Source: Bacilli bacterium (GTDB lineage Bacteria; Bacillota_I; Bacilli_A; RFN20; CAG-826). From it: a DNA stretch of 16,849 nt. Below, piece by piece: positions 1 through 16,849 of this stretch. The translations under genes and the position numbers were made by a program. Numbering within the stretch: position 1 is the stretch's first letter; every line of letters begins with the position of its first letter. The stretch covers positions 1 to 16,849 of the forward strand of contig JAILKX010000108.1 of the NCBI GenBank assembly GCA_024693415.1, written 5' to 3'. The notes under the pieces were generated by a model. That model worked only from the letters and a program-made list of their open reading frames with translations, made no database searches and was not told the origin of the DNA.

Positions 1-266
1 CCAGGGCCTTTGCCGGTATTGAGCATCTTGATCTGAAGCGGGTGATGGTCGGCGGCGATGCCCATGAGGCCGCCCAACGCATCGATTTCGCGCACCACCA
101 CGCCTTTCGCCGATCCGCCGATGTGCGGATTGCAGGGCATATTGGCGATCATCTTCTTATTCAGGGTGCACAAAAGAGTGCGCATCCCCATCTTGGCGCA
201 TGCATGACTTGCTTCGACGCCGGCGTGTCCTCCGCCGACGACGATGACGTCATATTCTTGGACCAT
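1..266 (-). CDS. mnmG: MnmG (GidA) tRNA U34 carboxymethylaminomethyl-modification FAD protein, N-terminal part
   Basis: Partial gene: the first 88 codons, running off the left edge. MnmG with MnmE installs the (carboxymethyl)aminomethyl group at the wobble uridine of certain tRNAs and binds FAD. The visible N-terminus begins [20 protein letters not shown], with the dinucleotide-binding GGGHAG at residues 11-16. It then has the family signature [11 protein letters not shown] (about 45-55) followed by VREIDALGG, and MLNTGKGP near the window edge. This separates it from TrmFO, whose N-terminus is different. The ATG lies at 264-266, only 3 nt after the sufB stop, with a weak GGGG-type ribosome site inside the end of sufB. 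It therefore probably depends on suf operon transcription and translational coupling. Identity is secure; the remainder of the protein is not visible. Confidence 0.93.
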
Positions 267-269
267 CGT

Positions 270-1676
270 TTACCCCACTGATCCCGCCATATCCATTTTG
301 ATGAGGCGGTTGAGTTCGACGGCGTACTCCATCGGAAGTTCTTTGGAGAAAGGTTCGATGAATCCCATGACGATCATTTGCGTCGCGTCCTCTTCGGAAA
401 TGCCGCGGCTCATGAGATAGAAGAGCTGGTCGGCGTTGATCTTAGAGACGGTGGCCTCGTGCTCGATATAGGAATCGTTGTTCTTGGTTTCGTTGACCGG
501 GATGGTGTCGCTTCTCGACATTTCGTCGACGATCAAGGTGTCGCATTCGACATGCGACTTCGATCCGGTGGCGGACTCTTCGAAGCGGACGGTGCCGCGG
601 TAATTGGCGACGCCGCCATCATGGACGATCGATTTCGAGATGATCGTCGAAGAGGTGTTCTTGCCCTGATGGATCATCCTGGCGCCGGCATCCTGGTACT
701 GGCCTTTGCCGCCGACGGCGATCGAAATCGTCGATCCCCTGGCGTAATCGCCATGGAGGATGCAGGCGGGGTATTTCATGGTGGTCATGGATCCGATGTT
801 GCCGTCGACCCACTCCATGAAGCCGTTTTCCTCGACGCGCGAGCGCTGGGTGACGAGGTTCAGGATGTTGTTGGACCAGTTCTGAATGGTCGTATAGCGG
901 ACGTGGGCGTTCTTCTCGACGATGATCTCGACGACGCCGACGTGGAGGGACTCTTTGGAATAGATCGGGGCGGTGCAGCCTTCGACGTAATGGATGTCCG
1001 CGCCCTCATCGGCGATGATGAGCGTCCTTTCGAACTGCCCGGTCTTCTCGTTGTTGATGCGGAAATAGGACTGGAGGGGCTTCTCAAGCTTCACGCCCTT
1101 AGGGACATAGATGAAACTGCCGCCGGACCAGCAGGCGGAATTGAGGGCCGAAAACTTGCTGTCGGCGATCGGGATGACGGTCGCGAAATACTTTTTGAAG
1201 ATCTCAGGGAAGAGCTTCAAGCCCATGTCGGTTGAGAGGAAAATGACGCCTTTTTGACGTACCTCCTCCAACATATTGTGGTAAACGACCTCGGATTCGT
1301 ACTGAGTCGAGACGCCGGCGAGGAACTTCTGCTCCGCCTCGGGGATACCAAGTTTCTGGAAGGTGCTCTTGACGGTGTCGGGGACGTCGTCCCACGAGGT
1401 TTCCTCCGCCTTCGAGACGCGGGTGAAATAGGTATAGGAATCGAAATCCATGAAGTCGAGGCTCGGGCCGAACCTCGGCATCGGCATCTTCTCGAACATA
1501 TGGAAAGCCTTGAGGCGGAACTCAAGCATCCATTCCGGCTCATCCTTGGCCTTGGAAATCGCGCGGACGATATCCTCGGTCAGACCTTTGCCGGTCGAAT
1601 AAATCGATACGTCCTCATCTTTGAAGCCGTATTTGTATTCCTGGTTGATGATATCCTTCTCGTCTTCAATCGCCAT
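270..1676 (-). CDS. sufB: SufB, Fe-S cluster scaffold subunit of the SufBCD complex
   Basis: 468 aa, normal length for SufB. In the cytoplasmic SufBC2D complex it receives persulfide sulfur and is the main site of nascent Fe-S cluster assembly. The C-terminal SufBD core is well preserved: YVEGCTAP at about 230-237, SHVECDT at about 374-380 with Cys378 in the place of the cluster-assembly cysteine of E. coli SufB, NETKNN around 395-400, and [23 protein letters not shown] at about 404-426 (given as the run start and end, with the EHEAT and FYLMSRG blocks as landmarks). The start at 1676 is preceded by GGAGGAACACCACC and overlaps the end of sufU by 11 nt, so translation is likely coupled. It is the last suf gene and is followed at once by mnmG. 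Assignment of single residues to catalytic roles is by family alignment from memory. Confidence 0.97.
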
Positions 1677-2112
1677 GGTGGTGTTCCTCCAGCAATTGCT
1701 TGACCGCGTCCCAGCCGATGGAGGCGCAGTGGATGCGGGCCGCCTGCTTGGACGTGTTCATGAACGCGAGCGCCTCTTCAAGCGCATCGGCGTCATAGGG
1801 CTCTTCGTGGAGCATGTGGGTGTATTGCTCGATGATGTAAAGGGCTTCGTCTTTGTTCTTGCCGACCAAAAGATCGCAGAGGATATCGGTCGAGGCGGTC
1901 GAGATGGTGCAGGCGACGCCTTCCCATTTCGCATCTTTGATCTTTCCGCCCTCTTCCTTCAGGTAGACGTTGATGTCGTCGATGCAGTTCACGGAAGAGG
2001 AATGCATCGAAAGATAGGAATCGTCCTTCGGGTCGGTTTTGTGACGGGGGTTGGACGCATGGTCCATGATGATCTCCCTCATCATTTCAGGAGTGATTTC
2101 AAAAGTAGGCAT
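1666..2112 (-). CDS. sufU: SufU, zinc-dependent sulfurtransferase partner of SufS
   Basis: 148 aa, IscU/NifU-like fold, SufU subfamily. In Gram-positive SUF systems SufU accepts the persulfide from SufS and passes it to SufBCD. The three conserved cysteines and the aspartate of the zinc/sulfur site are visible: Cys43 and Asp45 in VNCIDDI, Cys68 in GVACTIST and Cys129 in RIHCASIGW. The spacing between the second and third cysteines carries the SufU-type insert that separates it from IscU. The ATG at 2112 is preceded by AAAGGAG nine bases upstream and lies inside the end of sufS (14-nt overlap). The 3' end overlaps sufB. Its position between sufS and sufB is the standard Bacillota arrangement. 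Confidence 0.95.
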
Positions 2113-3331
2113 TCAAGAACTCTCCTTTGCATTTATCGATGGCTTCGACGAGGGCGTCGACGTCTTCTCTGGTGGTGTAGAGGTAGAAGGAAGCGCGCAC
2201 GGTGGCGACGGTTCCTAGGAAATCGTTCAGGATCTTGGCGCAGTGCTGGCCCGAACGGCAGGCGATGCCCCTGCTGTTAAGGTAGGTCGCGGCATCCTGG
2301 GCGAACACGCCGTCGACGTTGAACGTGACGATGCCCGCTTCGGATTCGGCGTTGTAGATGGTCGCTTTGTCGGTGGCCTTGATCTTCTCGACCGCGTACT
2401 TCTTGAGTTCGCGCTCGTGGGCGGCGATGTTGTCGATCCCAACCTTCTCGATGTATTCGATGGCGGCCCTTAGGCCCATGATGCCCTCGAGGTTCTGCGT
2501 CCCTGCTTCGAAGCGCACGGGCGGCTCGAGGAAATTCACGTCGCCGCACATATCGAATTTGGCGTTCATTCCGCCGCCGGTCATAAACGGCTCGGTCTTA
2601 CGCAGCAATTCGTATTTGCCATATAAGACGCCGATGCCGGTCGGCCCGCAAAGCTTATGGCCGGAGAAGGAAAGGAAATCGCAGTCCAGGTCCTTCACAT
2701 CCGTCTTGAAATGTGGGACCGATTGTGCGCCGTCGACGACGATGAGCGCGCCATGCTTATGGCAGATTTCAGCCAATTCCTTGATCGGCGCGACATAGCC
2801 CAAGACGTTGGTCACATGGGCGACGCAAACCAATTTCGTTGAGGACGTGAATGCGTTTTCGAGGTTTTCGGGGGTCAATCTCCCCTGCTCGTCAAGCGGG
2901 ATGAACCCGACTTTGCAGCCGGTCATCTCAGCGACTTTATACCAAGGCAAAACATTGGAAGCGTGCTCGGCCTGGGTGATCAGGATCTCATCGTCGGGGC
3001 CAAGATGCTTCGCGGCATAGCCAAACGCCACGAGGTTCACCGACATCGTGGTGCCGGAGGTGAAGACCACTTCCGACTGGTCGCAGTTGATGAAGGATGC
3101 GACGGCCTTGCGCGTCTTCAGCACTTCCTGGTCCATCGCATAGCAAAGATCGTAATCCCCGCGGTGGGAATTGCTGGTCTCCGTGGTGTAATAGCGGGTC
3201 ACGGCCTCGAGGACGCAGTCGGGCTTGAAAGTGGTCGATGCATTGTCGAGCCACACGAGCTCATGGTCCTGCATCTTCACCCCGTTGCGGTACATCGGGA
3301 AGTCTTTCCTAAGCAATTTCGGATCGAGCAT
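2099..3331 (-). CDS. sufS: SufS, group II cysteine desulfurase
   Basis: 410 aa, PLP-dependent aminotransferase class V fold. It converts L-cysteine to L-alanine and loads the sulfur as an enzyme persulfide for SufU. Visible active-site elements: His123 in QAEHASN, Asp200 in IVVDGAQS (PLP pyridine contact), Lys226 in SFSGHKL (Schiff base), and the catalytic Cys364 in CRSGQHCAK. The loop reads GQHC where many SufS proteins have GHHC. I chose the ATG at 3331, which overlaps the sufD stop as TGATG and has AGGAGG seven bases upstream. A GTG immediately before it (3334) would add one residue but leaves too short a spacing. It overlaps sufU downstream. Confidence 0.97.
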   Translation of the reverse strand: MLDPKLLRKDFPMYRNGVKMQDHELVWLDNASTTFKPDCVLEAVTRYYTTETSNSHRGDYDLCYAMDQEVLKTRKAVASFINCDQSEVVFTSGTTMSVNLVAFGYAAKHLGPDDEILITQAEHASNVLPWYKVAEMTGCKVGFIPLDEQGRLTPENLENAFTSSTKLVCVAHVTNVLGYVAPIKELAEICHKHGALIVVDGAQSVPHFKTDVKDLDCDFLSFSGHKLCGPTGIGVLYGKYELLRKTEPFMTGGGMNAKFDMCGDVNFLEPPVRFEAGTQNLEGIMGLRAAIEYIEKVGIDNIAAHERELKKYAVEKIKATDKATIYNAESEAGIVTFNVDGVFAQDAATYLNSRGIACRSGQHCAKILNDFLGTVATVRASFYLYTTREDVDALVEAIDKCKGEFLNAYF

Positions 3332-4005
3332 CACACGCCCTCCTCAATCGCTTGGTCAACCTGATTTTTCAAGGATTCATCGAAGAAATAATTGACGACG
3401 GGCTTGAGATAACCAAGGGTCAGAAGCCTTCTGGCCTCCGCGAGGTTCAAGCCGCGGGAAAGAAGGTAGAAGATGTGATCCTCGTTGAGCTTGCCGCAGC
3501 TTGCGGAATGGCTCGCGACGACATCGTTCTCGTCGATATTGAGGATTGGGGCCGCCTTGCCGACGCTCGTCGGGTCGAAGATGATGATCTTTGCTTCCTG
3601 ACGGGTCGATGAACCCCTCGCATATTTCTTGATCTCGCTCACCCCGGCGAACGACAGTCTGCCGTGGTCGCGGGTGATGCCATAGTTCGACATGAGGGCT
3701 TGGGTCTTGGGCTCGTCATGGAAAACGGAGGTGTCGAAAACCTTCCTGTCCGAGTTCCCGCCGATGCTTGCGAGGTGCCAGTTGCAGCTCGCTCCTTCGG
3801 CCAGATGCACGACGACGATCACCTTGCCAGAACCGTTCGACAAATCGGCGAATGCGCCGTCAAAAATGCCGTTTTTGCGGACATTTACTTCGATTTTGCA
3901 GGGTTTGAACTCTTTGAAGTTCGCGATGTTCAACCGCAGGGAATCGCCTTCCGGGACCTCGATTTGGAGGTCTTTTATTTGCTCGTTAAGAAGCAATAGG
4001 TCCAT
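3331..4005 (-). CDS. sufD: SufD-like subunit of SufBCD, short form lacking the usual N-terminal domain
   Basis: 224 aa; family members in Bacillus and E. coli are roughly 420-440 aa. The part present matches the C-terminal SufBD core: beta-rich segment at about 35-120, then PILNIDENDVVASHSAS at about 153-169 with His166 in the place of the conserved cluster-interface histidine, then GKLNEDHIFYLLSRGL (171-186) and the terminal helix. SufD pairs with SufB and forms the SufB-SufD interface where clusters are built. No frameshifted N-terminal remnant can exist, because the sufC stop is only 3 nt upstream of this ATG. The ATG at 4005 has an AGGGA ribosome site at good distance. The stop overlaps the sufS start. 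Identity as SufD, not a second SufB, rests on its place after sufC and its divergence from the sufB product here. Confidence 0.9.
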   Translation of the reverse strand: MDLLLLNEQIKDLQIEVPEGDSLRLNIANFKEFKPCKIEVNVRKNGIFDGAFADLSNGSGKVIVVVHLAEGASCNWHLASIGGNSDRKVFDTSVFHDEPKTQALMSNYGITRDHGRLSFAGVSEIKKYARGSSTRQEAKIIIFDPTSVGKAAPILNIDENDVVASHSASCGKLNEDHIFYLLSRGLNLAEARRLLTLGYLKPVVNYFFDESLKNQVDQAIEEGV

Positions 4006-4008
4006 GGC

Positions 4009-4839
4009 TTATTTCCCTTCGAGGCCAACCCTGGTGGCGCACGCCCCGATCGAGACCTTGTTCATCGGCTGATCCTCGACCGGCTTCTCGATCTCGATGC
4101 CGAGCTCGTCTTTGATCCACTCGTAACCGGTGGTGTCGATGCGATTGATGATCTCCGGTCCGCCCTCGACGGCGATTCTGCCGTTGATCATGACGGCCGC
4201 CCTTGTCGGATGGATCATCTCATAAAGGCGGGCATAGTGGCTGATGACGAGGAACCCCCTGCCCTTTTCCTGCTCCTCGCGGATGGCGGCGGCCACGACT
4301 TGCATCGCGTCGACGTCCAAGCCGGAGTCGATTTCGTCCAACATGGCGAACTTCGGCTCGAGCAGCTTCATCTGCAGGATCTCGTTCTTTTTCTTTTCGC
4401 CGCCGGAGAAGCCCTCGTTGAGGTTGCGGTTGCTCATCTCGAACGGGATGCCCATCTCCTTGTAGGCGGTCTGAAGCTTGCCATAGAACTGGAAGAGCTT
4501 CATCGGGGTTTCGCGGCGGACGTTCATCGCGGCTTTGAGGAAGTCGGCGGAGTTGACGCCCGGGATTTCGGAGGGATTCTGCATCGCGAGGAAGATGCCC
4601 GCTTTCGACCTCTCGTCGACGGGTAGGCTCAAAACATCGACGTCGTCTAAGAAAATCTTACCTTCGGTGACGGTGAAGGCCGGATTCCCCATGATGGCGG
4701 CGAGCAGCGTGGACTTGCCATGGCCATTCGGGCCAAGCAGCGCCAGGGTCTCCCCTTCTTGCAGATTCAGGTTCACGCCATGGAGGATTTCCTTCTCCCC
4801 TACGGTGACATGCAGGTTTTCGATTCTCAATGCAGACAT
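4009..4839 (-). CDS. sufC: SufC, ABC-type ATPase of the SufBCD complex
   Basis: 276 aa cytoplasmic ABC ATPase that drives conformational change in SufBCD during cluster assembly; it is not a transporter. Walker A GPNGHGKST is at 36-44, the Q-loop glutamine is Gln87 in AMQNPSEIPG, the signature is SGGEKKKNE (145-153), Walker B plus catalytic Glu is FAMLDE (164-169), the D-loop is SGLD (172-175) and the switch is His201. A tail of about 25 residues after the usual end (from about 250) ends in GLEGK and is somewhat longer than in typical SufC. First gene of the operon. AGGAGGG lies six bases before the ATG, and a sigma-A type promoter lies 27 to 55 bases upstream. Confidence 0.97.
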   Translation of the reverse strand: MSALRIENLHVTVGEKEILHGVNLNLQEGETLALLGPNGHGKSTLLAAIMGNPAFTVTEGKIFLDDVDVLSLPVDERSKAGIFLAMQNPSEIPGVNSADFLKAAMNVRRETPMKLFQFYGKLQTAYKEMGIPFEMSNRNLNEGFSGGEKKKNEILQMKLLEPKFAMLDEIDSGLDVDAMQVVAAAIREEQEKGRGFLVISHYARLYEMIHPTRAAVMINGRIAVEGGPEIINRIDTTGYEWIKDELGIEIEKPVEDQPMNKVSIGACATRVGLEGK

Positions 4840-4845
4840 AACTAA

Positions 4846-4852
4846 CCCTCCT
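4846..4852 (-). promoter_or_regulatory. Strong ribosome binding site of sufC
   Basis: Minus-strand AGGAGGG six bases upstream of the sufC ATG at 4839. It is the best Shine-Dalgarno match in the suf operon and fixes the sufC start. Confidence 0.8.
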
Positions 4853-4865
4853 AAGAGGCTTACCT

Positions 4866-4894
4866 ATTCTAGTCGCACAAAACCCGTTCGACAA
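4866..4894 (-). promoter_or_regulatory. Sigma-A type promoter of the suf operon
   Basis: On the minus strand, -35 TTGTCG (4889-4894) and -10 TAGAAT (4866-4871) are separated by exactly 17 bases. Transcription would start near 4859, giving a leader of about 20 nt before the sufC ATG with room for the ribosome site only. The match is four of six bases at -35 and five of six at -10. Prediction from sequence only. Confidence 0.7.
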
Positions 4895-4899
4895 CAAAA

Positions 4900-4915
4900 G
4901 CGATAACACAATCGC
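4900..4915. promoter_or_regulatory. Inverted repeat GCGAT-N6-ATCGC upstream of the suf promoter
   Basis: A perfect 5-bp inverted repeat (4900-4904 and 4911-4915) with a 6-bp spacer, just upstream of the suf -35 box. It could be an operator or upstream activator site. No known Fe-S regulator motif was recognised, and short repeats of this size also occur by chance. Confidence 0.3.
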
Positions 4916-4926
4916 CTCAGGCCCCC

Positions 4927-4942
4927 CAAAGATTTATCTTTG
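4927..4942. promoter_or_regulatory. 16-bp palindrome CAAAGATTTATCTTTG between divergent promoters
   Basis: Two perfect 7-bp arms (CAAAGAT and ATCTTTG) around a TT centre, lying between the divergent suf operon and the lipoprotein genes. It is about 33 bp upstream of the suf -35 box and 55 bp upstream of the lipoprotein -35 box. A dimeric regulator site is the simplest reading. No following T-run makes it a terminator. The regulator is unknown. Confidence 0.45.
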
Positions 4943-4993
4943 CGCCGAAAAGACGATTTACAGGGAATTGCTAGTATAAGCGCACAAAATTTT

Positions 4994-5007
4994 CTTGTTG
5001 TAACAAG
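4994..5007. promoter_or_regulatory. 14-bp palindrome CTTGTTGTAACAAG over the lipoprotein -35 box
   Basis: Perfect 6-bp arms (CTTGTT and AACAAG) around a GT centre. It covers the predicted -35 hexamer at 4998-5003, the classic placement for a repressor operator. The binding protein cannot be named from the sequence. Confidence 0.45.
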
Positions 5008-5026
5008 TATTGTTAAAGTCTATGAT
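4998..5026 (+). promoter_or_regulatory. Sigma-A type promoter of the prsA-like lipoprotein genes
   Basis: -35 TTGTAA (4998-5003) and -10 TATGAT (5021-5026) with a 17-bp spacer. The predicted start near 5033 gives a leader of about 33 nt to the ATG at 5066, containing AAGGAGG at 5047-5053. The -35 box is embedded in a 14-bp palindrome. Confidence 0.7.
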
Positions 5027-5065
5027 ATTCACGCTACGTTCAGACGAAGGAGGAACGAGTCCAGT

Positions 5066-7207
5066 ATGAAAAAATCGAAACTCACCCTCGGCGTTGTGAC
5101 GGCATTGGTCGCCATTCCGGCAATCACGGCCTGTGACGTTACCGCAAAAGAGGGCGTAGTGCTGACTTACTCTTATACTGATGCAAGTGGGAACACCCAG
5201 AAAGTTGACTACCATGCCAGCGATCTGTTCGACGACTATCTCACCAGCACCAGCGCAGCCAGCACTGCATTCACCAAGATCCAGGAACTCTTGATCCGCC
5301 AGTCCTATGAGACCGGCGACGCCAACACCCTGGCAACGCTCAAGTCCGAAGCCCAGTTGAAGGTCAGCAGCGTCAAGACCACTGCCGCCGACAATGCCAG
5401 CAACAACGGAACCACCTATCAGGCGGAATTCGAGAAGCTGCTCGAAAGCGAAGGCGTTGACAATGTCGACGAACTGTTCGACAAGAAGCTCTACGAAGTC
5501 GAGGAAGACCACTACAAAAAGAACTACTTCGTTCAGAAGAACCTGAACAAGATGCGCAGTGGCGAAAAGTGGGCCAATCTCTCCACCGACGCCCTCATCG
5601 AGAAGTATGGCCCGATCAGCCAAGGCTACATCGAAGACAAGATGCCCTACCACGTCTCGCACATCCTCGTCAAATTCGCGAGCGCGTCCAGCAACGACCA
5701 CACCCAGGCGACCGTCTCGGAAGCGGAATCCAAGAAGCTTTCCAACGTCGTCAAAGAACTCGCCGGCGCCAAGAACACCAGCGTCAGCGGAACCGATGCC
5801 AGCGCATCCAGGCTTACCTTTGGATCCATCGCCCAGCTCTTCTCGGAAGACGGAAGCGCATCCTCCTATGGCGATCTCGGCATCATGGATAGAGATACCG
5901 AATACGTGCCGGAATTCAAACTCGGTCTCTATGCGTTCGAAGCCCTTTACAGCAGCGGCAACTCCTACGCCGACACCACTGTGAAGACCCCGGACGGAAC
6001 CTCCCAAACCCTCAAGGAGAACCTGCTCCCGAGCGATGAAGCGAAAGACATCGACGGCAACTCCGTCCTCGCCGACTTCACCTCGCGCGGAATCGGGACC
6101 ATCCCCTATGGCGCATTCGTGGCCATGGGCAACGACGCGGTCGCCAAGGATCCTAACCTCGGCTACGAAGTCAACGGCAACGACAGCCACTTCTACCCGC
6201 GCAACGTTCTATTTAATAAATACTTCAACAACCACGCCATCGCGGTCATCACCCCGAACAAGATCGACTACAACGATTACCTTGATGGCGCTGCCCCGAC
6301 CGGCTCCGAATCCTGGTCCACCTATAAGACCAGCGAGGTCGACAGCCTCATGCAGGTCCAAACCAAGGGCACCCTCGAGGCCACTTACGCCGCCCTCCCC
6401 GGATTCCAGACCGATACCACCAACATCCTCCCCGGCATCGGCAGCAACGTCCTGACCACCAGCAACGGACAGATCGTCCTCGCCGTCAGGGCCGGCGCTT
6501 CCGGATCCTACGAAGGCATGCACTTCATCGTCGTCGACCGTTCCGCCCTCTCGCAGTACGGCACCTACGTCGATGAAACCACCAAGCAGATCACCCAGAA
6601 CACCGAGGCGACCTACACCGCGAACAAGAAAACCTCCGACATCACCTCGCTCGACGAGTACTACACGATGCTCACCCCGGGCAAAGTCCCGAGCGCGACC
6701 TCCACGGCGTTCAACGATCACGATGACGTCACCCAGTACCCCTACTACGTGAGCAACGGCGAAGCGGTCGCCAAGACCACCTACGTCAACAAGCTCATCT
6801 CCTCGACCGAGACCAACTACAGCGAAAAGGCCGCGGAGATCACCTCCAAGGTCAAGACCAACTGGAGCGATGCGATTCAGTATTACCAGTTCGAAGAGCT
6901 CTTGATCGACGACAACGGCAACGAAAAGATCACCTTCGTTGACGAAGACCTCGGCAAGCTCGTCACCAACTACATCAAGACCCGCCGCCTCAAATCCTAC
7001 AAGGATTGGTCCGACGACTTCGATGACGATTGGGTTGACTATGCCGAATACCTCGAGCAGCAAGATGCCGCCCGCGCGATGCGCGACGATGGCAACCAGA
7101 GCCTCATCTCTGAGACCTGCGCGATCCAATACGGCAGCGATGACGCCAAGAACAACACTGGCGACTGGGCGAAAGGAGGTCCGTGCTCCAATGGCAAGAA
7201 CAACTAA
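5066..7207 (+). CDS. PrsA-like parvulin foldase lipoprotein with a large domain insertion
   Basis: 713 aa from the ATG at 5066, chosen because it gives a lipoprotein signal peptide and follows AAGGAGG (12 bases away). An upstream in-frame start would add 42 residues that break the signal. Lys-rich N-end, hydrophobic segment, and lipobox ITAC with Cys23 as the lipidated residue: an anchored extracytoplasmic protein. A PpiC/parvulin domain begins at YHVSHILVKF (195-204), continues as TFGSIAQLFSED (251-262), YGDLGI (268-273) and VPEFKLGLYAFEAL (281-294). The usual closing strand appears only about 95 residues later as NHAIAVITPN (389-398), or possibly at GMHFIVV (484-490). PrsA folds exported proteins at the membrane surface. 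The protein is more than twice the length of Bacillus PrsA (about 290 aa). The acidic C-terminal region has Cys685 and Cys707. Function as peptidyl-prolyl isomerase is inferred. Confidence 0.8.
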   Translation: MKKSKLTLGVVTALVAIPAITACDVTAKEGVVLTYSYTDASGNTQKVDYHASDLFDDYLTSTSAASTAFTKIQELLIRQSYETGDANTLATLKSEAQLKVSSVKTTAADNASNNGTTYQAEFEKLLESEGVDNVDELFDKKLYEVEEDHYKKNYFVQKNLNKMRSGEKWANLSTDALIEKYGPISQGYIEDKMPYHVSHILVKFASASSNDHTQATVSEAESKKLSNVVKELAGAKNTSVSGTDASASRLTFGSIAQLFSEDGSASSYGDLGIMDRDTEYVPEFKLGLYAFEALYSSGNSYADTTVKTPDGTSQTLKENLLPSDEAKDIDGNSVLADFTSRGIGTIPYGAFVAMGNDAVAKDPNLGYEVNGNDSHFYPRNVLFNKYFNNHAIAVITPNKIDYNDYLDGAAPTGSESWSTYKTSEVDSLMQVQTKGTLEATYAALPGFQTDTTNILPGIGSNVLTTSNGQIVLAVRAGASGSYEGMHFIVVDRSALSQYGTYVDETTKQITQNTEATYTANKKTSDITSLDEYYTMLTPGKVPSATSTAFNDHDDVTQYPYYVSNGEAVAKTTYVNKLISSTETNYSEKAAEITSKVKTNWSDAIQYYQFEELLIDDNGNEKITFVDEDLGKLVTNYIKTRRLKSYKDWSDDFDDDWVDYAEYLEQQDAARAMRDDGNQSLISETCAIQYGSDDAKNNTGDWAKGGPCSNGKNN

Positions 7208-8825
7208 TCTCAAAAAGGTCTGCGTCTCCCTCCTCGCGGCTTCCGCATTCATGCTCGTTAGCTGCGACACCGTCGAGGCCGGTCTCACCGACTCCGAGGA
7301 GAACGCAAAGATCCTCAATTACGATGGCGAGCTCACCAACAACAAGATGGGTGAGATCTACGATGCCCTCGTGACCGCCGGAAGCTCCAACTCCGAGCGT
7401 GTCCTCAACAACATCCTCAAGATCTATGCCGAAAAAATCTTCGGCGGCTTCTACGAACTCCGCGAAGCGGTCGCAGACGACACCGCCATGACGACCTTCC
7501 TCGCCAACAAGGCGCACCAGGAAGTCTACGGCACCGACGACAACGCCGCGGCCAAAGTCAAAGTCCAGTACAACCACTGGCTCGAAAGCATCAAGGAATC
7601 CTTCTGGGGTTATGTGAACAACTCGACCTACCAGGAGCGTTCCATGTTCTTCGAAGAGAAGTTCTACGACGCTCAGATCAACGAGCTCTACAGCCTCGGC
7701 TCCGTGACGACCTTCAAATCCTTCGAGTTGGACGCCATGAAAGACGAGGACGACGTCGCCTCCTTCTTCTCCCCCTACGATGGCACTGAGGGCTACCTCA
7801 CCACCTACAAGGACTACATCGAAAGGAACTTGCTCCCGAGCCTCTATCGCGATGCCCTCACCGAGCAGTACCTCATCGATAACAACCTCGGCTCCCTCGG
7901 CCGCAGCTATGCTAGGAAAGTCACCTACATCGCCCTCCCGGCCCTCGAGACCGACGCCGCTACGCAGAAATTGTTGAACGCGTATTGCGAGCGCGTGATC
8001 GAAGACGCCACCGTCGACGAGAAGTACAGCGACTTCCGCTACCTCAACGCCCTCTATAACGGCTATTGGGACTTCACCGACGCCACCTGGGAAACCCTCG
8101 CCGCCAAGATCTACAGCGATGCGGGCTTCGATGACACCGTCACCGATCCGAACGCCAAGGAAATCCCGGTTGAGACCGCCTACGGCAAACTCATCAAGGA
8201 CTATAACGAAGTCGAGGACAACCGTCACATGACCGGCACCTCCACCGACTTCACCGGCGGCAACAAGTACACCAAAGAAGTTGGCCTCGAGATCAAGACC
8301 CGCGAGATCAAAGCGACCTCCAAGGTCAAGGCCGGCTGGTTCACCTCCAGCGGACTGAGCGACCTCCCCTCCACCATCAAGAACCGCGTGTTCAAGATGT
8401 CGGTGGCCAACGAAGTCGACTCCCTCGAAGAAGGCAGCTTCGGCAAGTACGTCAACGGCAACTACTACATGGTTCCCGATGAATACTCCTCCGACATCAA
8501 GTATCCTTACGCAATCTTCGACCAAAGCTCCACCACCTCCTATCTCGTGAGGGTCGATGAAGCGGTCAAGGCGCCTAAGCTCGTCCTTGATAAAGAGACT
8601 GGCGTCCAGTCGTATCAGAACATGGTGGAAGGCACCAACGCCCGCCACACCAGGGACTTCGAGTATCAGTGGGACATCATCCACAACGTCGCCGAACTCC
8701 TCTCCTCGACCGACTCCTACAAGAAGGCGGCCAAGCAGACCTATGTCAAAGCGATGGCGCTCGAGTATCATGACCAAACCGTCTATGATTACTTCGTCTC
8801 GACGTTCCCCGATCTCTTCGACTGA
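7191..8825 (+). CDS. Secreted lipoprotein, probably a degenerate PrsA/parvulin-like chaperone
   Basis: 544 aa from the ATG at 7191, which follows AAAGGAGG and overlaps the previous gene by 17 nt in another frame. A long upstream extension in this frame is only a shadow of the neighbour. Signal peptide with lipobox LVSC (Cys25). No domain is obvious at first sight, but parvulin-like landmarks occur in order. These are a strand KVTYIALP (243-250) where HILV would be, a helix WETLAAKIYSDAGF (300-313), GWFTSSGLSDLPSTIKNRVF (382-401) resembling the GDLGWF half of PrsA, and a closing strand SYLVRVD (450-456). The active-site histidines are absent, and a catalytic isomerase is unlikely. Operon pairing with a PrsA-like protein suggests a shared role in export folding. 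The homology is inferred by eye, so an unrelated lipoprotein remains possible. Confidence 0.7.
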   Translation: MARTTNLKKVCVSLLAASAFMLVSCDTVEAGLTDSEENAKILNYDGELTNNKMGEIYDALVTAGSSNSERVLNNILKIYAEKIFGGFYELREAVADDTAMTTFLANKAHQEVYGTDDNAAAKVKVQYNHWLESIKESFWGYVNNSTYQERSMFFEEKFYDAQINELYSLGSVTTFKSFELDAMKDEDDVASFFSPYDGTEGYLTTYKDYIERNLLPSLYRDALTEQYLIDNNLGSLGRSYARKVTYIALPALETDAATQKLLNAYCERVIEDATVDEKYSDFRYLNALYNGYWDFTDATWETLAAKIYSDAGFDDTVTDPNAKEIPVETAYGKLIKDYNEVEDNRHMTGTSTDFTGGNKYTKEVGLEIKTREIKATSKVKAGWFTSSGLSDLPSTIKNRVFKMSVANEVDSLEEGSFGKYVNGNYYMVPDEYSSDIKYPYAIFDQSSTTSYLVRVDEAVKAPKLVLDKETGVQSYQNMVEGTNARHTRDFEYQWDIIHNVAELLSSTDSYKKAAKQTYVKAMALEYHDQTVYDYFVSTFPDLFD

Positions 8826-8844
8826 TCAAAACGCGCTATAATAT

Positions 8845-8868
8845 GGGCAGGAGAAATCCTGCCCTTTT
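8845..8868 (+). terminator. Rho-independent terminator after the lipoprotein genes
   Basis: Perfect 8-bp stem GGGCAGGA (8845-8852) and TCCTGCCC (8857-8864) closed by a GAAA tetraloop of the stable GNRA class, followed by TTTT and an A+T-rich stretch. It lies 20 nt after the second lipoprotein stop and just before the HIT gene, so some readthrough may feed hit. The short T-run suggests partial termination. Confidence 0.75.
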
Positions 8869-8894
8869 ATATTAATAAGGAGATACGCGCGCAC

Positions 8895-9308
8895 ATGAAA
8901 GACATCTTCTGCCGAATCATCGATGGGGAAATCCCCAGCAACATCATCTACGAGGACGACGACGTCATCGCGATCCTCGACATCTCGCAGGCGACCAGGG
9001 GCCACACCCTCGTCATCCCGAAGAAGCATTACGACAACTTCCTTTCCTGCCCGATGGACATCATGCATAAGGTCTATGACGTGGCCCAAAGGATCGGGCA
9101 GGCCGAGATGGCCGTGCTCGGCGCCAAAGGCGTCAACATCCTCACCAACGTCGGTGAGCCCGCCGGCCAAAGCGTCCCCCACTTCCACGTTCACGTCATC
9201 CCCCGCTACCTCGGCGGGGAAGGCGGATTCCAGATCACCATGGAGTCCCACGACGCCTCTTCGATCGATTTACCGCGCCTTGCGATGCAGATCAAAGAAG
9301 GCCTCTGA
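8895..9308 (+). CDS. HIT-family nucleotide hydrolase/transferase (HinT-like)
   Basis: 137 aa, cytoplasmic, normal length for a Bacillota Hit protein. N-terminal CRIIDGEIPS (6-15), VIAILDISQATRGHTLVIP at about 24-42, and the histidine triad HFHVHVIPR at 96-104, where the middle histidine (98) would be the nucleophile. Such proteins cleave AMP-X bonds such as adenosine phosphoramidates; the physiological substrate is unclear. The ATG at 8895 follows AAGGAG. It sits behind the lipoprotein terminator and could be expressed by readthrough; no convincing promoter of its own is seen. In Bacillus the hit gene also lies near prsA and yhaM. Confidence 0.93.
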   Translation: MKDIFCRIIDGEIPSNIIYEDDDVIAILDISQATRGHTLVIPKKHYDNFLSCPMDIMHKVYDVAQRIGQAEMAVLGAKGVNILTNVGEPAGQSVPHFHVHVIPRYLGGEGGFQITMESHDASSIDLPRLAMQIKEGL

Positions 9309-9322
9309 TAGAAGCCGAACAT

Positions 9323-9370
9323 AATGAAAATCGCGCCACGTCCCCCACGGATTGGCGCGATTTTCATTTT
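9323..9370. terminator. Bidirectional terminator between hit and yhaM
   Basis: A perfect 16-bp inverted repeat, AATGAAAATCGCGCCA (9323-9338) against TGGCGCGATTTTCATT (9353-9368), with a 14-nt loop that itself can pair CGT with ACG. A T-run follows on the plus strand and A-rich arms give U-rich 3' sides in both directions. It separates the convergent hit and yhaM transcription units. Confidence 0.88.
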
Positions 9371-9379
9371 TTGGCTTTG

Positions 9380-10423
9380 TTATTTCAGGTCGTCTTTCTC
9401 TTCTTCGACGCTCGTGCCAGCGACGTAGGCAGGCTTAGAGAAGGTCGGGAGATAGAAGTAACGGTCATCCATATTGAAGAGCTTCGCAGTGGATCCGCCC
9501 TTCTCGACATCCTTGAACGCCTTATCGAGGATCATCATCTTGGCATCGAGGTCATCGATCACGCCGATCACGAAGGATTCGCGGGTGACCGGCATAACCG
9601 GTGAGCCGAATTCGGGCTTGGAGTGATGCGACAGCACGATGTGCTCAAACACGACCGCGATCTCCTTTTTGCGGAACAGCGGATGGTTGATGGTCTGCTG
9701 CTCAAGCGGCAAGTCGTCGAAGGCGTACATGCCTAGCTCTTTCGCGACGGAACGAAGCTCTGCTTGGCCGATGGAGATGTGGCCAAGGAGTTTACCTTCG
9801 AGGGTGAACGAGGTGGCATTTGCGCCGCTTAGCTCGATCGTCTTGCCCATATCGTGGATGATGACGCCGCCGAGCACCACGTCGCGGTTAAGGCTCGGGT
9901 AGACGCGGCACACCTTCGCCGCCATATCGGCCATGGTCAAGGAGTGATAAAGGAGGCCGGAGACGTAGTCATGGTGATTTCTGACGGCCGCCGGATAGGT
10001 GAGGTATTTGTCGCCGAAGCGCTTCACCATCGCCTCGACGAGGGCTTTGATGTCGGGATCTTCGATCGAGTCGATGTAGATGCGGAGCTTTTCCTTCATC
10101 GTCTCAATAGAGACAGGGGCGCTGGAAACGAAGCGGGTCCAGTCGATGTTGTCCTGCGGAATCGAGGTGACGCTGAAGATTTTGAGTTGGAGCTGCGTCT
10201 TGTACCGGTTCACTGCCCCGCTGATCTGCACGATGAGCCCTTTGGCGAGGATTTCCTCATCCCCTGGGGCATAATCCCATTTCTTTCCTTCGATCGTCCC
10301 CGTGGCGTCTTGCAGCGTCACGTTCATGTAGCCAGCACCGTTGGCGGTCACGCCTTTCTTGCTGTCGACGATCAGGAATTGTTCGTCGACCCGGCATCCG
10401 TCGGTGAATTCATTGATAAGCAT
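9380..10423 (-). CDS. yhaM: YhaM-type 3'-5' exoribonuclease (OB-fold plus HD domain)
   Basis: 347 aa. YhaM trims RNA 3' ends in the cytoplasm of Bacillota, leaving processed termini near terminators. An N-terminal OB-fold nucleic-acid module spans about 1-90 (YMNVTLQDATGTIEGKKWDY at 32-51). An HD phosphohydrolase domain then follows: GLLYHSLTMA (156-165, His160), GGVIIHDMGK (185-194, His-Asp 190-191), GKLLGHISIG (210-219), LSHHSKPEFGSP (264-275) and IDDLDAK (289-295). These are the expected metal-binding positions. The ATG at 10423 is 2 nt after the recX stop and follows GGAGG ten bases upstream within recX. Last gene of a four-gene operon, ending at the shared terminator. A diverged C-terminal tail is acidic. 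Confidence 0.94.
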   Translation of the reverse strand: MLINEFTDGCRVDEQFLIVDSKKGVTANGAGYMNVTLQDATGTIEGKKWDYAPGDEEILAKGLIVQISGAVNRYKTQLQLKIFSVTSIPQDNIDWTRFVSSAPVSIETMKEKLRIYIDSIEDPDIKALVEAMVKRFGDKYLTYPAAVRNHHDYVSGLLYHSLTMADMAAKVCRVYPSLNRDVVLGGVIIHDMGKTIELSGANATSFTLEGKLLGHISIGQAELRSVAKELGMYAFDDLPLEQQTINHPLFRKKEIAVVFEHIVLSHHSKPEFGSPVMPVTRESFVIGVIDDLDAKMMILDKAFKDVEKGGSTAKLFNMDDRYFYLPTFSKPAYVAGTSVEEEKDDLK

Positions 10424-10425
10424 AT

Positions 10426-11226
10426 TCAGATATCCTCCAATACATTGTTGATGTCGTCATAGTCGTAGCCCTTCCTCGCCAAGCAGGCGAAGAGGTGGGA
10501 GCGAAGGGCATAGCCCTCGTATTTCCTTTCGTATTTCGCCAAGGCGGCTTGCAGGTCCTTCTTGAGCTTTGCGCGGTCATCCCTTTCGGAATTCTCCTCG
10601 TAGCCCTTACCGATTGCGTATTCGATCGCTTCGGGGTCGAATCCCTTATCGCGAAGGGCGATTTTGCACTGCTGCAATTTGCGGTTATTCGGCAGCCTTG
10701 CGTAGCGCGTATTCAGCGAATCCATCCAGGACAGTGCATTGTTTTTCTCGGTTTTGGATGGAAAATCGAGCTTGTTCATGATCTCTTCGGAGACGCCGCG
10801 GTCCTTGAGTTTGCGCAAGATCAGGTTCCGACCTTCCTTCTTGTAGGAGCTGAGCTCTTCCGCATAGTCTAAGGCGAATTGCTTATCGTCAAGCAAGCCG
10901 TTTTTCTTCAAACGCGCGATGATCTTGTTGCGCGCCTCAAGCGTCGTGCCCATAGATTTCAGCTTCTCGCAGACCTCCATCTCGGTTCGGGGATGCGAGG
11001 ATATCATCGAAATCGCTTTGGAATAGGCGTCGTCTTGGGCGACGTATTCCTTGATCCGCTTCAATTCCGCGGGGGACATGACCTTGTTTTCGTAGATTCG
11101 GAACTCGGTGTAGGCGTCAGGAGAACACTCGATGACCTCCTTGTTCGATAAGGTGATCTGGATGCGGCTCTTCTTGATCTCCACCGAGACGACGGAGATC
11201 TCTTTACCACCTTTGCCTGCAGACAT
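10426..11226 (-). CDS. recX: RecX family regulator of RecA
   Basis: 266 aa, length as in Bacillus RecX. RecX binds and modulates RecA filaments in the cytoplasm. It is an all-helical repeat protein: after a beta-rich N-terminal piece (about 10-45) come three-helix units, for example SHPRTEMEVCEKLKSMG (77-93), then KNGLLDDKQFALDYAEEL (107-124, a hallmark of the family) and a matching repeat RKLKDRGVSEEIMNKL. The C-terminal pattern LARKGYDYDDINNVLEDI is also typical. The ATG at 11226 follows GAGGTG and overlaps the glycosyltransferase end by 23 nt. recA itself is not in the window, so the link to its neighbours is operonic only. Confidence 0.88.
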   Translation of the reverse strand: MSAGKGGKEISVVSVEIKKSRIQITLSNKEVIECSPDAYTEFRIYENKVMSPAELKRIKEYVAQDDAYSKAISMISSHPRTEMEVCEKLKSMGTTLEARNKIIARLKKNGLLDDKQFALDYAEELSSYKKEGRNLILRKLKDRGVSEEIMNKLDFPSKTEKNNALSWMDSLNTRYARLPNNRKLQQCKIALRDKGFDPEAIEYAIGKGYEENSERDDRAKLKKDLQAALAKYERKYEGYALRSHLFACLARKGYDYDDINNVLEDI

Positions 11227-12379
11227 TGCTGTACACCTCGTGAGCTTGTTTGTAGAACGTATCCATCGAATAGGTTTCGGCCGCTTGGACGCCGGCCTTC
11301 GTTATGGCTTTCCTTTCCTCGTCGGAAAGATCGACCACGTGCTTCAATTTCTGCACCAAATCGTCCTCGCTTAGGAAGAAGAACCCATTTTCGCCATCGC
11401 GGATCGTTCCGCTTAGGTTATCGTCGAAGCGGGCTAGGACCACTAAAGAGGAGGCCATGGCTTCCATGAAGGTCAAGCCTTGGGTCTCGGTGATGGAAGC
11501 CGAGGCAAAGCAATCGGCGATATGGTAGAAATTCTGCGTCTCGTCGGGAGCGCATTTTCCAGTGAAGATGACATGATCTTCAATGCCGAGCTGTTTGGCC
11601 AGAGCCTTAAGGTCATCTTCCGCAGGGCCAAGTCCCGTGATCACGAATTTGGTGTTCCTCTTCGGATTGGTTTCAAGATACTTCTTGTATCCGTTGAGGA
11701 TCATGTCAATCGACTTTTCCTTCGCGATGCGGCCAAGGGACAAGATGACGTAGTCGTCAGGGGCGATTCCCCACTTCTTTTTGATGGCATCCACGGCAGA
11801 CGTGTCTTTGTTTTCGATGGAAAACCGCTTCACGTCGATACCCGTTGGGATGATGTGGATCGGGCCGTCAATGCCGATGGAGCGAAGATAATCCTTAATC
11901 TTTCCGCTCGGGGCGATGAAGGCATCGTAGCTGTGGGATTTGCCGCGGTAGAAGAATCGGACCACATGGCGGGCGACGCGGTCGAAATGCCCGCGCGTCA
12001 CATAATAGGCATAATCCTCGATCATCGTGTGGAATGTATAGATTTTGCCGATGCCGAGGCGCGATGCCATGATGGAGCCGAACATCCCGACGCCGACGTC
12101 GGTCTGGCAGTGGACGATATCGGGGCGGAAGGCCGTGATGATCTTGGCGGCCTTCGAGTTGAAGAAGCTGCTGACGCGGTAGCCGTATAGGGCCTTCAGC
12201 TCAAAGCCGGGCATGCGCAAAACATTGTTTTCATAAGACAGGGTCTTGGTGAATGGATTGGTCGTTACCACGAGGACCTCATCGCCGTGCTCCCTGAAAG
12301 TCTTGGCGAGGTTATAGGAGGACGTGGCGACGCCATTGATCTCCGGCGGATATGTATCGGTGAACAGGGCAACTCTCAT
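11204..12379 (-). CDS. GT4 glycosyltransferase, probably membrane glycolipid synthase
   Basis: 391 aa from ATG 12379, which forms an ATGA overlap with the stop of the membrane protein gene upstream. A start six codons earlier (12397) is possible but the family begins at MRVALFTDTYPPEINGVATS. GT-B fold, family GT4: N-terminal donor/acceptor half to about 180, IPTGIDVKRF at 177-186, SLGRIAKEKSID at 214-225, and the EX7E motif ETQGLTFME at 298-306. The closest family type by eye is the diacylglycerol alpha-glucosyltransferase group that makes membrane glycolipids in Bacilli and Acholeplasma, using UDP-glucose. The exact sugar and acceptor are inferred, not shown. It would act at the inner face of the membrane. 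Coupling to the polytopic membrane protein upstream supports a lipid role. Confidence 0.85.
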   Translation of the reverse strand: MRVALFTDTYPPEINGVATSSYNLAKTFREHGDEVLVVTTNPFTKTLSYENNVLRMPGFELKALYGYRVSSFFNSKAAKIITAFRPDIVHCQTDVGVGMFGSIMASRLGIGKIYTFHTMIEDYAYYVTRGHFDRVARHVVRFFYRGKSHSYDAFIAPSGKIKDYLRSIGIDGPIHIIPTGIDVKRFSIENKDTSAVDAIKKKWGIAPDDYVILSLGRIAKEKSIDMILNGYKKYLETNPKRNTKFVITGLGPAEDDLKALAKQLGIEDHVIFTGKCAPDETQNFYHIADCFASASITETQGLTFMEAMASSLVVLARFDDNLSGTIRDGENGFFFLSEDDLVQKLKHVVDLSDEERKAITKAGVQAAETYSMDTFYKQAHEVYSNVCRQRW

Positions 12380-13836
12380 AGATCCCAATTCTCCCATCCG
12401 GAGTCCTCTGACTTCTTTTTCTTCTTGACCCTCTTCTCTTTTTTGGGCTTCTGCTGTTTCTCGTCGACTTTGATGCGCGCGTGCATGGATGTCTCGGTCA
12501 TGCTCTTTTCCGGCATCTCATCGCTGGGCAAGCTGAAATTCAGCTGCACGCCCTCATCGTTTTTGTCTTTCTTCGGGCGGAGGAAGGAAGTTGTTTCGAT
12601 TAACTTGCGGCGCAATTCCTTGCGCGACATCTGACGGGTTTCGTACATCGTATCGGCCGAGCGCTTACGTTCATCGAACGTAGCAAGCTGCAGGTCGACG
12701 AAGGTCTGGCGGTTGACGTAACCGACGTTCTCCCTGAGGCCGCGAGAACGATACAGGGCCGCCACGAAGCCCGAAACGACGAGCATCAGGTGGAAGGTCG
12801 CGAACCTCCAAAGGATCTGGGTAGCGGAAATGATGTCGGTTTTGCCTTCGAAGAAGTTGAAGAAGAGGTAGTAATAGAAAAGTTCGGATACGCCGGCGGC
12901 GCCAGGGATCGGGATAAGCCCCGTGACCATTTGATGGAACGAGGATAAGAATGCTGCGTCGAAGAGCAATTTGACATTGAACTGCGCGCCTTCGCCAAAG
13001 GCGGTCAAAGACAATCCAGCGAGGTACGGTATGCAATTTCGCATGAAAATCAGCAACAGGAACATGATGATCTGCAATATCACAACCGGCACGTTGGCCT
13101 GCAATCGCCGCAACTCGATCTTGAAGTTCTCTACCTGCACGCGCAGGTTCTCGCGCGTCTTATCGGGGCGCTTGATGATATGGATCTTCCCCAAGAAACC
13201 GATGACGTAGCGCAAAATGAAGTTATGGATATGGTGGCTGTAGCTCATGACGAAGAGCAAGGCGATGACCGAAAGGTTCAGCAAGAAGCCCGCGATGATG
13301 AGCGGAAGCATCGGCAAAGTGAGCGTCGAGCCGTCGTTCATCGCGATATCGATGTTCTTAATCGACATGATCTGGTTCCATTCGACTGCATAGGCCACGA
13401 CATCGAACAAGATCAAAGCGGTTTGATAAAGGATAAACCACATGACCATGATTGAGGCGGCGTTGCTGACCTGAATGCCTTGGGATTTCAGGGTGTAAAC
13501 CTGCATGACCTGCCCACCGCTTGCGCCCGGGGTGACATCGGAATAGAACTGGCCGACGAACGTTGTGGCGATGCCTTGGTGGAATTTATATTGTCTGGTG
13601 TATAGGCGGCAGAAAATGAAAATGATGGTGCCGTCCACCACATAAGAACCCCCGACGACGGAGAACATGATCAGAATGTAACGCCAATCGGCTTTGCTGA
13701 ACGCGGAAAGGACGTTGTTGAAGTTATCACCCCACAACGAGATCGCCAACGAGACTCCGGTAGCGACCAAGACGATGAGAATATAGAAGATATATTTTAT
13801 CGTCCCGTTCTTTTTCTTTGCGTTTTTCTCAGCCAT
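12376..13836 (-). CDS. UPF0104/lysylphosphatidylglycerol-synthase-type integral membrane protein with charged tail
   Basis: 486 aa from ATG 13836. A start nine codons earlier (13863) is also open, and neither has a clear Shine-Dalgarno. Basic N-terminus, then hydrophobic segments near 13-35, 52-77, 125-150, 174-198, 249-275 and 340-362. Family landmarks are FVGQFYSDVTPGASGGQVMQ (93-112) and IPIPGAAGVSE (308-318), typical of the flippase-like domain of MprF and relatives; the aminoacyl-transferase domain of MprF is absent. From about 363 a 124-residue hydrophilic tail follows, ending in a lysine-rich stretch (about 460-475) and the tryptophan motif GWENWDL. First gene of the operon with the GT4, recX and yhaM. 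It probably handles glycolipid or phospholipid translocation; the substrate is unknown. Confidence 0.85.
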   Translation of the reverse strand: MAEKNAKKKNGTIKYIFYILIVLVATGVSLAISLWGDNFNNVLSAFSKADWRYILIMFSVVGGSYVVDGTIIFIFCRLYTRQYKFHQGIATTFVGQFYSDVTPGASGGQVMQVYTLKSQGIQVSNAASIMVMWFILYQTALILFDVVAYAVEWNQIMSIKNIDIAMNDGSTLTLPMLPLIIAGFLLNLSVIALLFVMSYSHHIHNFILRYVIGFLGKIHIIKRPDKTRENLRVQVENFKIELRRLQANVPVVILQIIMFLLLIFMRNCIPYLAGLSLTAFGEGAQFNVKLLFDAAFLSSFHQMVTGLIPIPGAAGVSELFYYYLFFNFFEGKTDIISATQILWRFATFHLMLVVSGFVAALYRSRGLRENVGYVNRQTFVDLQLATFDERKRSADTMYETRQMSRKELRRKLIETTSFLRPKKDKNDEGVQLNFSLPSDEMPEKSMTETSMHARIKVDEKQQKPKKEKRVKKKKKSEDSGWENWDL

Positions 13837-14002
13837 ATGCGCGACATGGTAATAATAAACCATGTCGGCATTGATTGGAACGCGATTTCACGCACGCGCA
13901 TTAGCGTCATAAGGCTTGGGGGCGGGAACAAAATGAGCCATTTGCAAAGAAAAGGGTAAACAAAAGGCGACAATCACAATAAAATGTTTGCAGTAGAATC
14001 CC
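13837..14002. other. Divergent intergenic region, little recognisable
   Basis: 166 bases between the membrane protein gene (minus) and the 201-aa protein gene (plus). I see A-rich tracts, a possible plus-strand promoter (separate entry) and minus-strand TATTAT at 13852-13857 without a convincing -35. No RNA gene or strong hairpin is evident. Confidence 0.4.
13957..13985 (+). promoter_or_regulatory. Possible promoter of the 201-aa protein gene
   Basis: -35 TAAACA (13957-13962) and -10 TAAAAT (13980-13985) separated by 17 bases. The predicted transcript would start only about 11 nt before the ATG at 14003, leaving no room for a ribosome site, in agreement with the lack of one. Weak prediction. 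Confidence 0.35.
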
Positions 14003-14608
14003 ATGATACGGAAAAACTATTATTACATTCAGCTGAAGCCAACGATTGAGAAGGTTTTAACAGCCCACACCGACCGCAAAACAGCTCGGCAAATACTTCG
14101 TAAGAGCCCGCATGTTTACCGCGCGCTTCGTGAGATCGGACCCGATGTCGGAAAGAAAAACCCCTTGGCGAGGCATATTGATTTTGCGTTGACGTTTTTA
14201 GCAATTTATTTGGCCCATGACAAAAGGATTGCGCCCGAAATACTTGGCGAGGCAATGCTATCGATAGCCAACAACCAAGCGACAAAGCTCTCCAAGCATG
14301 ATATCCGCACCGCTGAAGGCAAAGAGGATTTCGAAAAGAGACTGAATCAAATGGCGTCGTGGCAGGACGAAGGACACAAGGCAGAATTCCCAGGCGACTA
14401 CATCCTTAGTGTTCAGCAAACGGATGGTTCATATATCATCAACGTCGAGCGCAATGCAGCAGAAAAGATCATCGTTAAATCGGGCGGCAAGAAATTGCTC
14501 CCCCAATTTGATGCCTTCGACAAGAGGATCATAGAATTGGCCGGCGGGGATTTAGATATTCAGCGATCCGGGCCAGCAACCAAATACACCATCACTCCCA
14601 AGAAATAA
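14003..14608 (+). CDS. Unassigned 201-aa protein
   Basis: I do not recognise this protein with confidence. The ATG at 14003 is the first possible start because a TAG stop lies three codons upstream; no Shine-Dalgarno is visible. No signal peptide and no strong membrane segment, though HIDFALTFLAIYLAHDKR (58-75) is moderately hydrophobic. The N-terminal half (1-95) looks helical and basic (RKTARQILRKSPHVYRALR from about 25). The C-terminal half (about 120-201) looks like beta strands, with LPQFDAFDKRIIEL near 166-179. A faint overall resemblance to the L-2-amino-thiazoline-4-carboxylate hydrolase-like group (helical N-half, mixed C-half) was noted, but the cysteines expected there are missing. 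Codon use is less C-ending than the neighbours, which hints at accessory origin. It ends in its own terminator and faces a TetR gene. Confidence 0.72.
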   Translation: MIRKNYYYIQLKPTIEKVLTAHTDRKTARQILRKSPHVYRALREIGPDVGKKNPLARHIDFALTFLAIYLAHDKRIAPEILGEAMLSIANNQATKLSKHDIRTAEGKEDFEKRLNQMASWQDEGHKAEFPGDYILSVQQTDGSYIINVERNAAEKIIVKSGGKKLLPQFDAFDKRIIELAGGDLDIQRSGPATKYTITPKK

Positions 14609-14635: not shown

Positions 14636-14669
14636 GATTCAAATACTTAGGTTTTGCGGAAAGTTTCAA

Positions 14670-16806: not shown

Positions 16807-16849
16807 AAAACGGCCTCGCAAGTTGTTTTTATTTTATGCCTTTCTTATA

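Follow-up and report, generated by a model that had tools for sequence, protein, structure and literature searches.

The window considered here is a stretch of 16,849 nucleotides (nt) from a Bacilli bacterium (GenBank assembly GCA_024693415.1, contig JAILKX010000108.1, forward strand, positions 1-16,849; GTDB lineage Bacteria; Bacillota_I; Bacilli_A; RFN20; CAG-826). All coordinates refer to this whole stretch, and the order to which the bacterium belongs is termed the source order. Our subject is a pair of overlapping genes on the forward strand. The first, P1 (5066..7207; ATG at 5066, stop codon ending at 7207), codes for a PrsA-type parvulin lipoprotein of 713 amino acids (aa) with an insert within its parvulin domain, and the second, P2 (7191..8825; ATG at 7191, stop codon ending at 8825), for a PrsA-like lipoprotein of 544 aa that is free of the catalytic histidines. 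The two genes share 17 nt (7191..7207), and an AGGAGG ribosome site precedes both starts, that of P2 lying within the end of P1 (7174..7179).

Because direct searches with P1 and P2 against Pfam, NCBIfam and the PDB gave nothing significant or above cut-off, alignments of their relatives were needed. At E values up to 0.001, at least 451 relatives of P1 and at least 174 of P2 were recovered among the candidates scored; from the 120 relatives listed for each, 54 P1 sequences were kept at less than 72% identity and, after omission of three short ones, 68 of the remaining 117 P2 sequences. The lipobox cysteines, recognized by pattern, are invariant in these rows: C23 of P1 (5132..5134) in all 54 and C25 of P2 (7263..7265) in all 68. 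The overlap and the consecutive lipoboxes that had drawn the attention of the first-pass annotation are thus real features of the locus.

P1 taken alone stays below the Pfam parvulin cut-off and, at E up to 10, finds nothing in NCBIfam. Among its 54 aligned relatives, Rotamase_3 matches 46 and Rotamase 42 (E up to 1); the family profile finds PrsA in the PDB at E 0.002, and a broader profile of 17 P1s, 10 of them from other Bacilli, finds Bacillus subtilis PrsA at 2.7e-26. The predicted model (pLDDT 88.3, pTM 0.87) has B. subtilis PrsA and Pin1 as its best PDB matches in Foldseek (best E 0.0017), and VIA superposition of its parvulin domain on a fragment of B. anthracis PrsA gives 2.1 Å over 91 residues with 33% identity. 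The P1 range in this superposition, residues 191-494, greatly exceeds the length of a parvulin domain, owing to an insertion of about 190 residues ahead of the last parvulin strands; this insert (about residues 290-480, 5933..6505, with approximate borders drawn from the VIA range and from alignment with short P1s of other Bacilli) is absent from all 10 of the short P1s aligned. The catalytic triad comprises H199 in beta1 (5660..5662), D262 (5849..5851) and H486 in beta4 (6521..6523, within GMHFIVV). In a set of 106 P1 rows, which counts one gene twice as locus L090 repeats part of L129 in cut form, the triad is complete in 95; by position, H199 is His in 97 rows and a gap in three, D262 is Asp in 105 and H486 is His in 103. 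The motifs HILV (with H199), SED (260-262), YGDLG and VPEFK singled out at first sight are all present in P1, and H199 was correctly recognized, the second catalytic histidine, H486, having gone unnamed. By its sequence, P1 is a PrsA-type parvulin predicted to retain a His/Asp/His active site.

P2 is more divergent. Alone it has no Pfam match of parvulin type and no NCBIfam match at E up to 10; no parvulin appears among the 25 shown of 38 Pfam families for its 68 relatives, and the 68-row profile finds no parvulin among PDB sequences. Structure prediction and Foldseek brought the relationship out: the P2 model (pLDDT 87) has PrsA chains as its 11 best matches, and it aligns with PrsA entries from about residue 20 to residue 540, at high root-mean-square deviation (rmsd) (VIA). 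A degenerate parvulin-like domain with inserts (residues 240-464, 7908..8582) superposes from residue 240/241 to 462/464 on PpiD at 3.2 Å over 97 residues and on SurA at 3.7 Å over 96 (VIA), so that a confident model of P2 does carry a parvulin-like fold. Shorter P2 relatives from other Bacilli match PrsA structures in the PDB over their full length (E 1.1e-20); against Rotamase_2 they reach E 1.1e-4, below the cut-off. A profile chain over 278 columns likewise speaks for the PrsA architecture of N-lobe, parvulin domain and C-lobe. Since the model best matches PrsA and these shorter relatives match PrsA throughout, P2 is a degenerate PrsA paralogue without the catalytic His pair, as the first-pass annotation had proposed.

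The catalytic residues themselves were compared at the two His columns, which were assigned in P2 by motif. No histidine occurs in the P2 strands that match parvulin beta1 and beta4, and neither assigned column, represented in the window by Y246 (7926..7928) and Y451 (8541..8543), has His in any of 111 rows. The first is occupied by Y, V, I, T, F, M, A or C and the second by Tyr in 97 of the 111; a nearby His lies one to three places off in five rows (beta1) and farther along the strand in two (beta4). The P2 landmarks quoted by the first-pass annotation are likewise found, without His in the beta1- and beta4-like strands. WETLAAKIYSDAG falls in a stretch of the family that is gapped or variable, and we think that DFRYLNALYNG (residues 281-291) is the better counterpart of the PrsA 'FEELAxxYSxD' helix. 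An origin of the two open reading frames (ORFs) as a frameshift artefact was rejected, as both are conserved separately.

The two genes are kept together across the source order. A genome scan gave 135 confirmed P2 loci; 78 of the best 80 show P1 upstream in the same orientation as P2, and the contigs of the other two begin inside P2. A HIT gene follows P2 in 75 of the 80, the other five contigs ending within 170 nt of P2, and a SufC match stands beside the pair in most. In the window, the corresponding neighbours are a HIT-family protein (8895..9308, forward strand) and a divergent sufC on the left (4009..4839, reverse strand). In NCBIfam the HIT protein scores highest with NF045834, the model of mollicute HinT (102.6 bits, below the cut-off of 130), a better score than with the general purine nucleoside phosphoramidase model. 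Spacing from P1 was measured for 103 of 113 P2s, one P2 being entered twice through L090 and L129: 71 overlap P1, 32 lie at 0-28 nt and none lies farther. The 10 left out comprise seven without a called P1 ORF, five of which have a P1 match, and three without a lipobox.

Of 147 genomes drawn from the source order, 140 yielded P1 and 132 yielded P2. Nine genomes have P1 only, and in all nine it is followed, overlapping or within 20 nt, by a protein of P2-like size with a lipoprotein signal that weakly matches the P2 family; divergent P2s were included in the iterated P2 profile and score there by construction, the first profile having given E values of 1e-10 to 0.07 (28 sequences). Six of the 147 lack both genes, and a seventh holds nothing of the pair but pieces of P2; none of these seven gave a Rotamase_3 match. 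In ten genomes searched with the same model (E up to 0.1), eight have one match, one has two and one has none, the genome with two being a bin labelled Spirochaetota and perhaps mixed. As eight of the ten have a single match, P1 is usually the sole parvulin seen by the Rotamase_3 model.

The pair also extends beyond the source order. In 20 loci chosen by hand from the best class hits outside it, P1 adjoins P2 in 17, with a divergent SufC-type neighbour on the P1 side in 13 of these and a HIT gene directly after P2 in 13, so that the arrangement sufC | P1-P2-HIT is met again in other Bacilli. Of the three remaining loci, two contain just one PrsA-like gene and no P2, and the third contains neither. 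At loci L163 and L164 the lone PrsA-like gene stands near genes that resemble, by eye, a cell-division cluster. The proteins of the paired loci are smaller: uncut P1s span 324-382 aa and P2s 284-325 aa, and the N-termini of the 17 P1s, judged by eye, comprise 10 membrane anchors, six lipoboxes and one cut end. All 10 P1s tested from these Bacilli pass the Rotamase cut-off; none of the 10 tested P2s passes a parvulin cut-off, six weakly touching Rotamase_2. Homology between P1 and P2 is claimed because these intermediate sequences connect them.

A further tie between the two is their joint duplication. Three genomes carry the pair twice (loci L129, L130 and L132/L133), two of them (G021 and G033) as four consecutive genes P1-P2-P1-P2 and the third (G013) as two pairs on separate contigs, each at a contig end. 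The P1 tree unites the second copies in one clade (support 100/99) and groups the first copies in another (96/95). Second copies are also a clade in the P2 tree (100/99, with a long-branch flag), where the first copies stand beside it at weaker support. In the second-copy P1s, H199 is replaced by Q, D or E, and H486 is kept. Across 39 loci that passed a length filter, P1 and P2 distances correlate at 0.94, and the partial correlation given seven neighbours is 0.66, the highest of 36 pairs (the next reaching 0.48).

Around the pair, a promoter-like consensus match lies upstream of P1 (4998-5026), and a terminator-like stem-loop with a T run, recognized by consensus scan only and the sole such site on the forward strand, lies between P2 and the HIT gene (8845..8864). 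Together they are compatible with a two-gene transcript, as consensus matches from a scan that returned six promoter-like sites against 1.7 in shuffled sequences and 12 terminator-like sites against 6.1. To the right of the HIT gene, on the opposite strand, is a yhaM-type exoribonuclease gene (9380..10423, below the model cut-off). The suf genes (270-4839), divergent from the pair, comprise sufC, a short SufD-like gene under its cut-off, sufS, sufU and sufB. Farther right, 11204-13863 holds a glycosyltransferase, closest to the alpha-monoglucosyldiacylglycerol synthase NF049988 (under cut-off), beside a flippase-like protein, and a 201-aa ORF (14003-14608) has no Pfam match at E up to 0.001.

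Taken together, these observations make it reasonably probable that P1 and P2 are two subunits of a membrane-tethered, heteromeric extracellular foldase of the PrsA type. A prsA gene would have been duplicated to give P1 and P2, both of which would be lipid-anchored outside the membrane. P1, with its kept parvulin site, is predicted to isomerize Xaa-Pro bonds; P2, which retains a chaperone lobe at either end and a parvulin fold without the catalytic His, would bind clients, probably without isomerizing them. By analogy with PrsA homodimers, the chaperone lobes may hold the two together, and the pair would cradle proteins as they leave Sec, a heterodimer then standing in place of the homodimer and combining common chaperone lobes with one live isomerase and one binding-only arm. 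The two-component device suggested by the first-pass annotation thus gains support for its pairing from adjacency, paired duplication and correlated divergence; on our best reading, a heteromeric PrsA foldase of this kind would predate the source order.

Several points weigh against this reading. Foldseek gave no match below E 0.001 for either model, and P2 superposes on full-length PrsA at an rmsd as high as 6.6-11.0 Å, with VIA Z scores below 8. Within the source order alone, the P1 and P2 profiles match near noise (6.2%, E 0.006), sharing a signal peptide and a weak N-terminal similarity. The P1 and P2 trees differ, with weak support, on where the second copies attach. Raw P1 distances also track those of the flippase (0.90) and the glycosyltransferase (0.86), and much of the P1-P2 correlation is therefore shared descent. 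The triad fails in 11 of the 106 P1 rows, three through gaps of cut genes and eight through substitutions, the latter including the second-copy P1s of the three two-pair genomes. Lastly, both catalytic His are lost in five of the 10 aligned P1s from other Bacilli. A partnership of one catalytic and one non-catalytic member, as originally envisaged, therefore holds for most of the source order and fails in those five P1s and, at H199, in the second copies; because of the five, the paired paralogues, and not the active/inactive contrast, look to be the old feature.

The best-surviving alternative, unlikely but of some weight, is that P1 and P2 are independent PrsA paralogues, co-transcribed, each homodimeric and serving different clients, like Listeria PrsA1 and PrsA2. 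Genomes with two PrsAs of partly separate roles are known (PMC11853100), and homology and close spacing alone require no complex; P1 upstream of P2 in 78 of 80 loci, the three double-pair genomes and the top partial correlation nonetheless exceed what this alternative needs. Less probable still, and in our view rather improbable, is that P2 no longer takes part in folding and acts as a scaffold or adaptor, joining P1 to some other membrane machine or, via P1, to HIT/HinT. The HIT gene after P2 in 75 of 80 loci would suit such a role, as would the report that P60 of Mycoplasma hominis is tightly bound to P80, which in turn binds HinT (PMC539234), but P2 keeps the lobes and the parvulin fold, a terminator-like hairpin separates it from the HIT gene in the window, and P1 and P2 are predicted extracellular lipoproteins while HIT is expected to be cytosolic. 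Some His substitutions are tolerated in parvulin catalysis, as in Pin1/Ess1, which lends a little credit to the idea that P2 still isomerizes prolines without the two His. We hold this to be very improbable in view of the varied residues at the first place and the predominance of Tyr at the second; moreover, the PrsA of Streptococcus pneumoniae, in which Ile and Tyr occupy these two positions, reportedly has no peptidyl-prolyl isomerase (PPIase) activity (PMC11853100). That P2 is an unrelated lipoprotein resembling PrsA by chance, as the absence of parvulins from the PDB-sequence and listed Pfam matches of its 68-row family might suggest, was rejected as scarcely credible, for structure and intermediate sequences link it to PrsA over its full length.

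The neighbourhood of the heteromeric foldase proposed here recalls the mollicute hit locus. The M. hominis operon hitA-hitB-hitL codes for P80, whose signal anchor stays uncleaved, for the lipoprotein P60, which is tightly bound to P80, and for the cytosolic HinT, which binds P80 (PMC539234; PMC1173108); different arrangements are named for M. pneumoniae, M. genitalium and M. gallisepticum (PMC1173108). At 19 of 20 mollicute HIT places (of 23, 20 were fetched), a protein of about 700 aa with an N-terminal hydrophobic anchor is followed by a shorter protein and then by HIT, and three tested protein pairs belong to NF045833 (P80) and NF045835 (P60). The same order of large membrane protein, lipoprotein and HinT is seen in the window and the source-order loci. 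At E up to 10, P1 and P2 match neither family in NCBIfam, and the profiles of P1 and P2, used in hmmsearch, found neither P80 nor P60 at a significant whole-protein score, one P80 having a local match to the P1 profile at its N-terminus (i-E 1.7e-4). Profile-profile comparison of P80 with P1 gave 34.5% (E 4e-4) with 19 P80s and 64.9% (E 6.1e-5, 49.7 bits) with 25, over 119 N-terminal columns only; the match sits at the same position after the anchor, and unrelated decoys reach at most 22 bits. P60 against P2 stayed at noise level. Among 395 genomes of the class, NF045833 is over its cut-off in 26 and NF045835 in 25; G400 has a P60 match below the cut-off (E 1e-26), and the remaining matches are weak and short and so provide no bridge between P80/P60 and P1/P2. 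A locus common to mollicutes and the source order is likely in our view, and the orthology of P1 and P2 with P80 and P60 is only suggestive. We tentatively propose, as something a little short of an even prospect, that the asymmetric pair of PrsA proteins had a single origin close to the root of this part of the Bacilli, kept its place between sufC and hit, and was ancestral to the mollicute P80-P60-HinT complex. On that view the complex would be a PrsA heterodimer in remodelled form, a secretion foldase that wall-less cells have retained.

The first-pass annotation knew of no described arrangement of this kind. A search of open-licence literature, mostly of titles and abstract openings, found no description of this pair and no link of P80 or P60 to PrsA; two elements have precedents, as PrsAs lacking catalytic activity have been described (PMC11853100) and mollicute P80-P60-HinT shows the same gene order (PMC1173108). 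Should mollicute P80-P60 prove to be a PrsA pair of this kind, a complex described two decades ago would gain a testable function, none being stated in the portions of PMC1173108 and PMC539234 at hand. The two systems share gene order, similar sizes and a lipoprotein, P60, tightly bound to its partner; they differ in the uncleaved signal anchor of M. hominis P80, in the weak match of P1 to the P80 N-terminus alone and in the lack of a match between P60 and P2. More broadly, divergent PrsA paralogues kept adjacent in uncultured Bacilli and beyond, one of them His-free, offer a natural test of the role of the parvulin site in extracellular folding. Like the PrsAs of Bacillota (B. subtilis 4WO7, Listeria PrsA1 5HTF, S. 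mutans 7L75), P1 and P2 are lipoproteins with chaperone lobes around a parvulin domain, and P1 has the His/Asp/His site; unlike them, they are about twice the size through inserts and are encoded by two adjoining genes, one without the site. PrsA crystal structures are dimers, homodimers among the structures compared, and dimerization is reported to be critical for Listeria PrsA (PMC11853100). The non-catalytic streptococcal PrsA (S. pneumoniae, Ile150/Tyr235) resembles P2 in having both His replaced, with Tyr second as in most P2 rows, but the part of the source at hand describes no adjacent active PrsA partner for it and discusses cyclophilin-type PPIases instead (PMC11853100). Listeria PrsA1 and PrsA2 likewise provide two paralogues per genome, although both are said to be PPIase-active and no overlapping pair is described in that part of the source (PMC11853100). 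In Escherichia coli PpiD-YfgM, transmembrane anchors replace lipid anchors and the partner YfgM is a TPR protein, not a parvulin paralogue; as in the pair proposed here, a parvulin-domain chaperone works in a heterodimer, in this case at the Sec translocon (PMC9643414).

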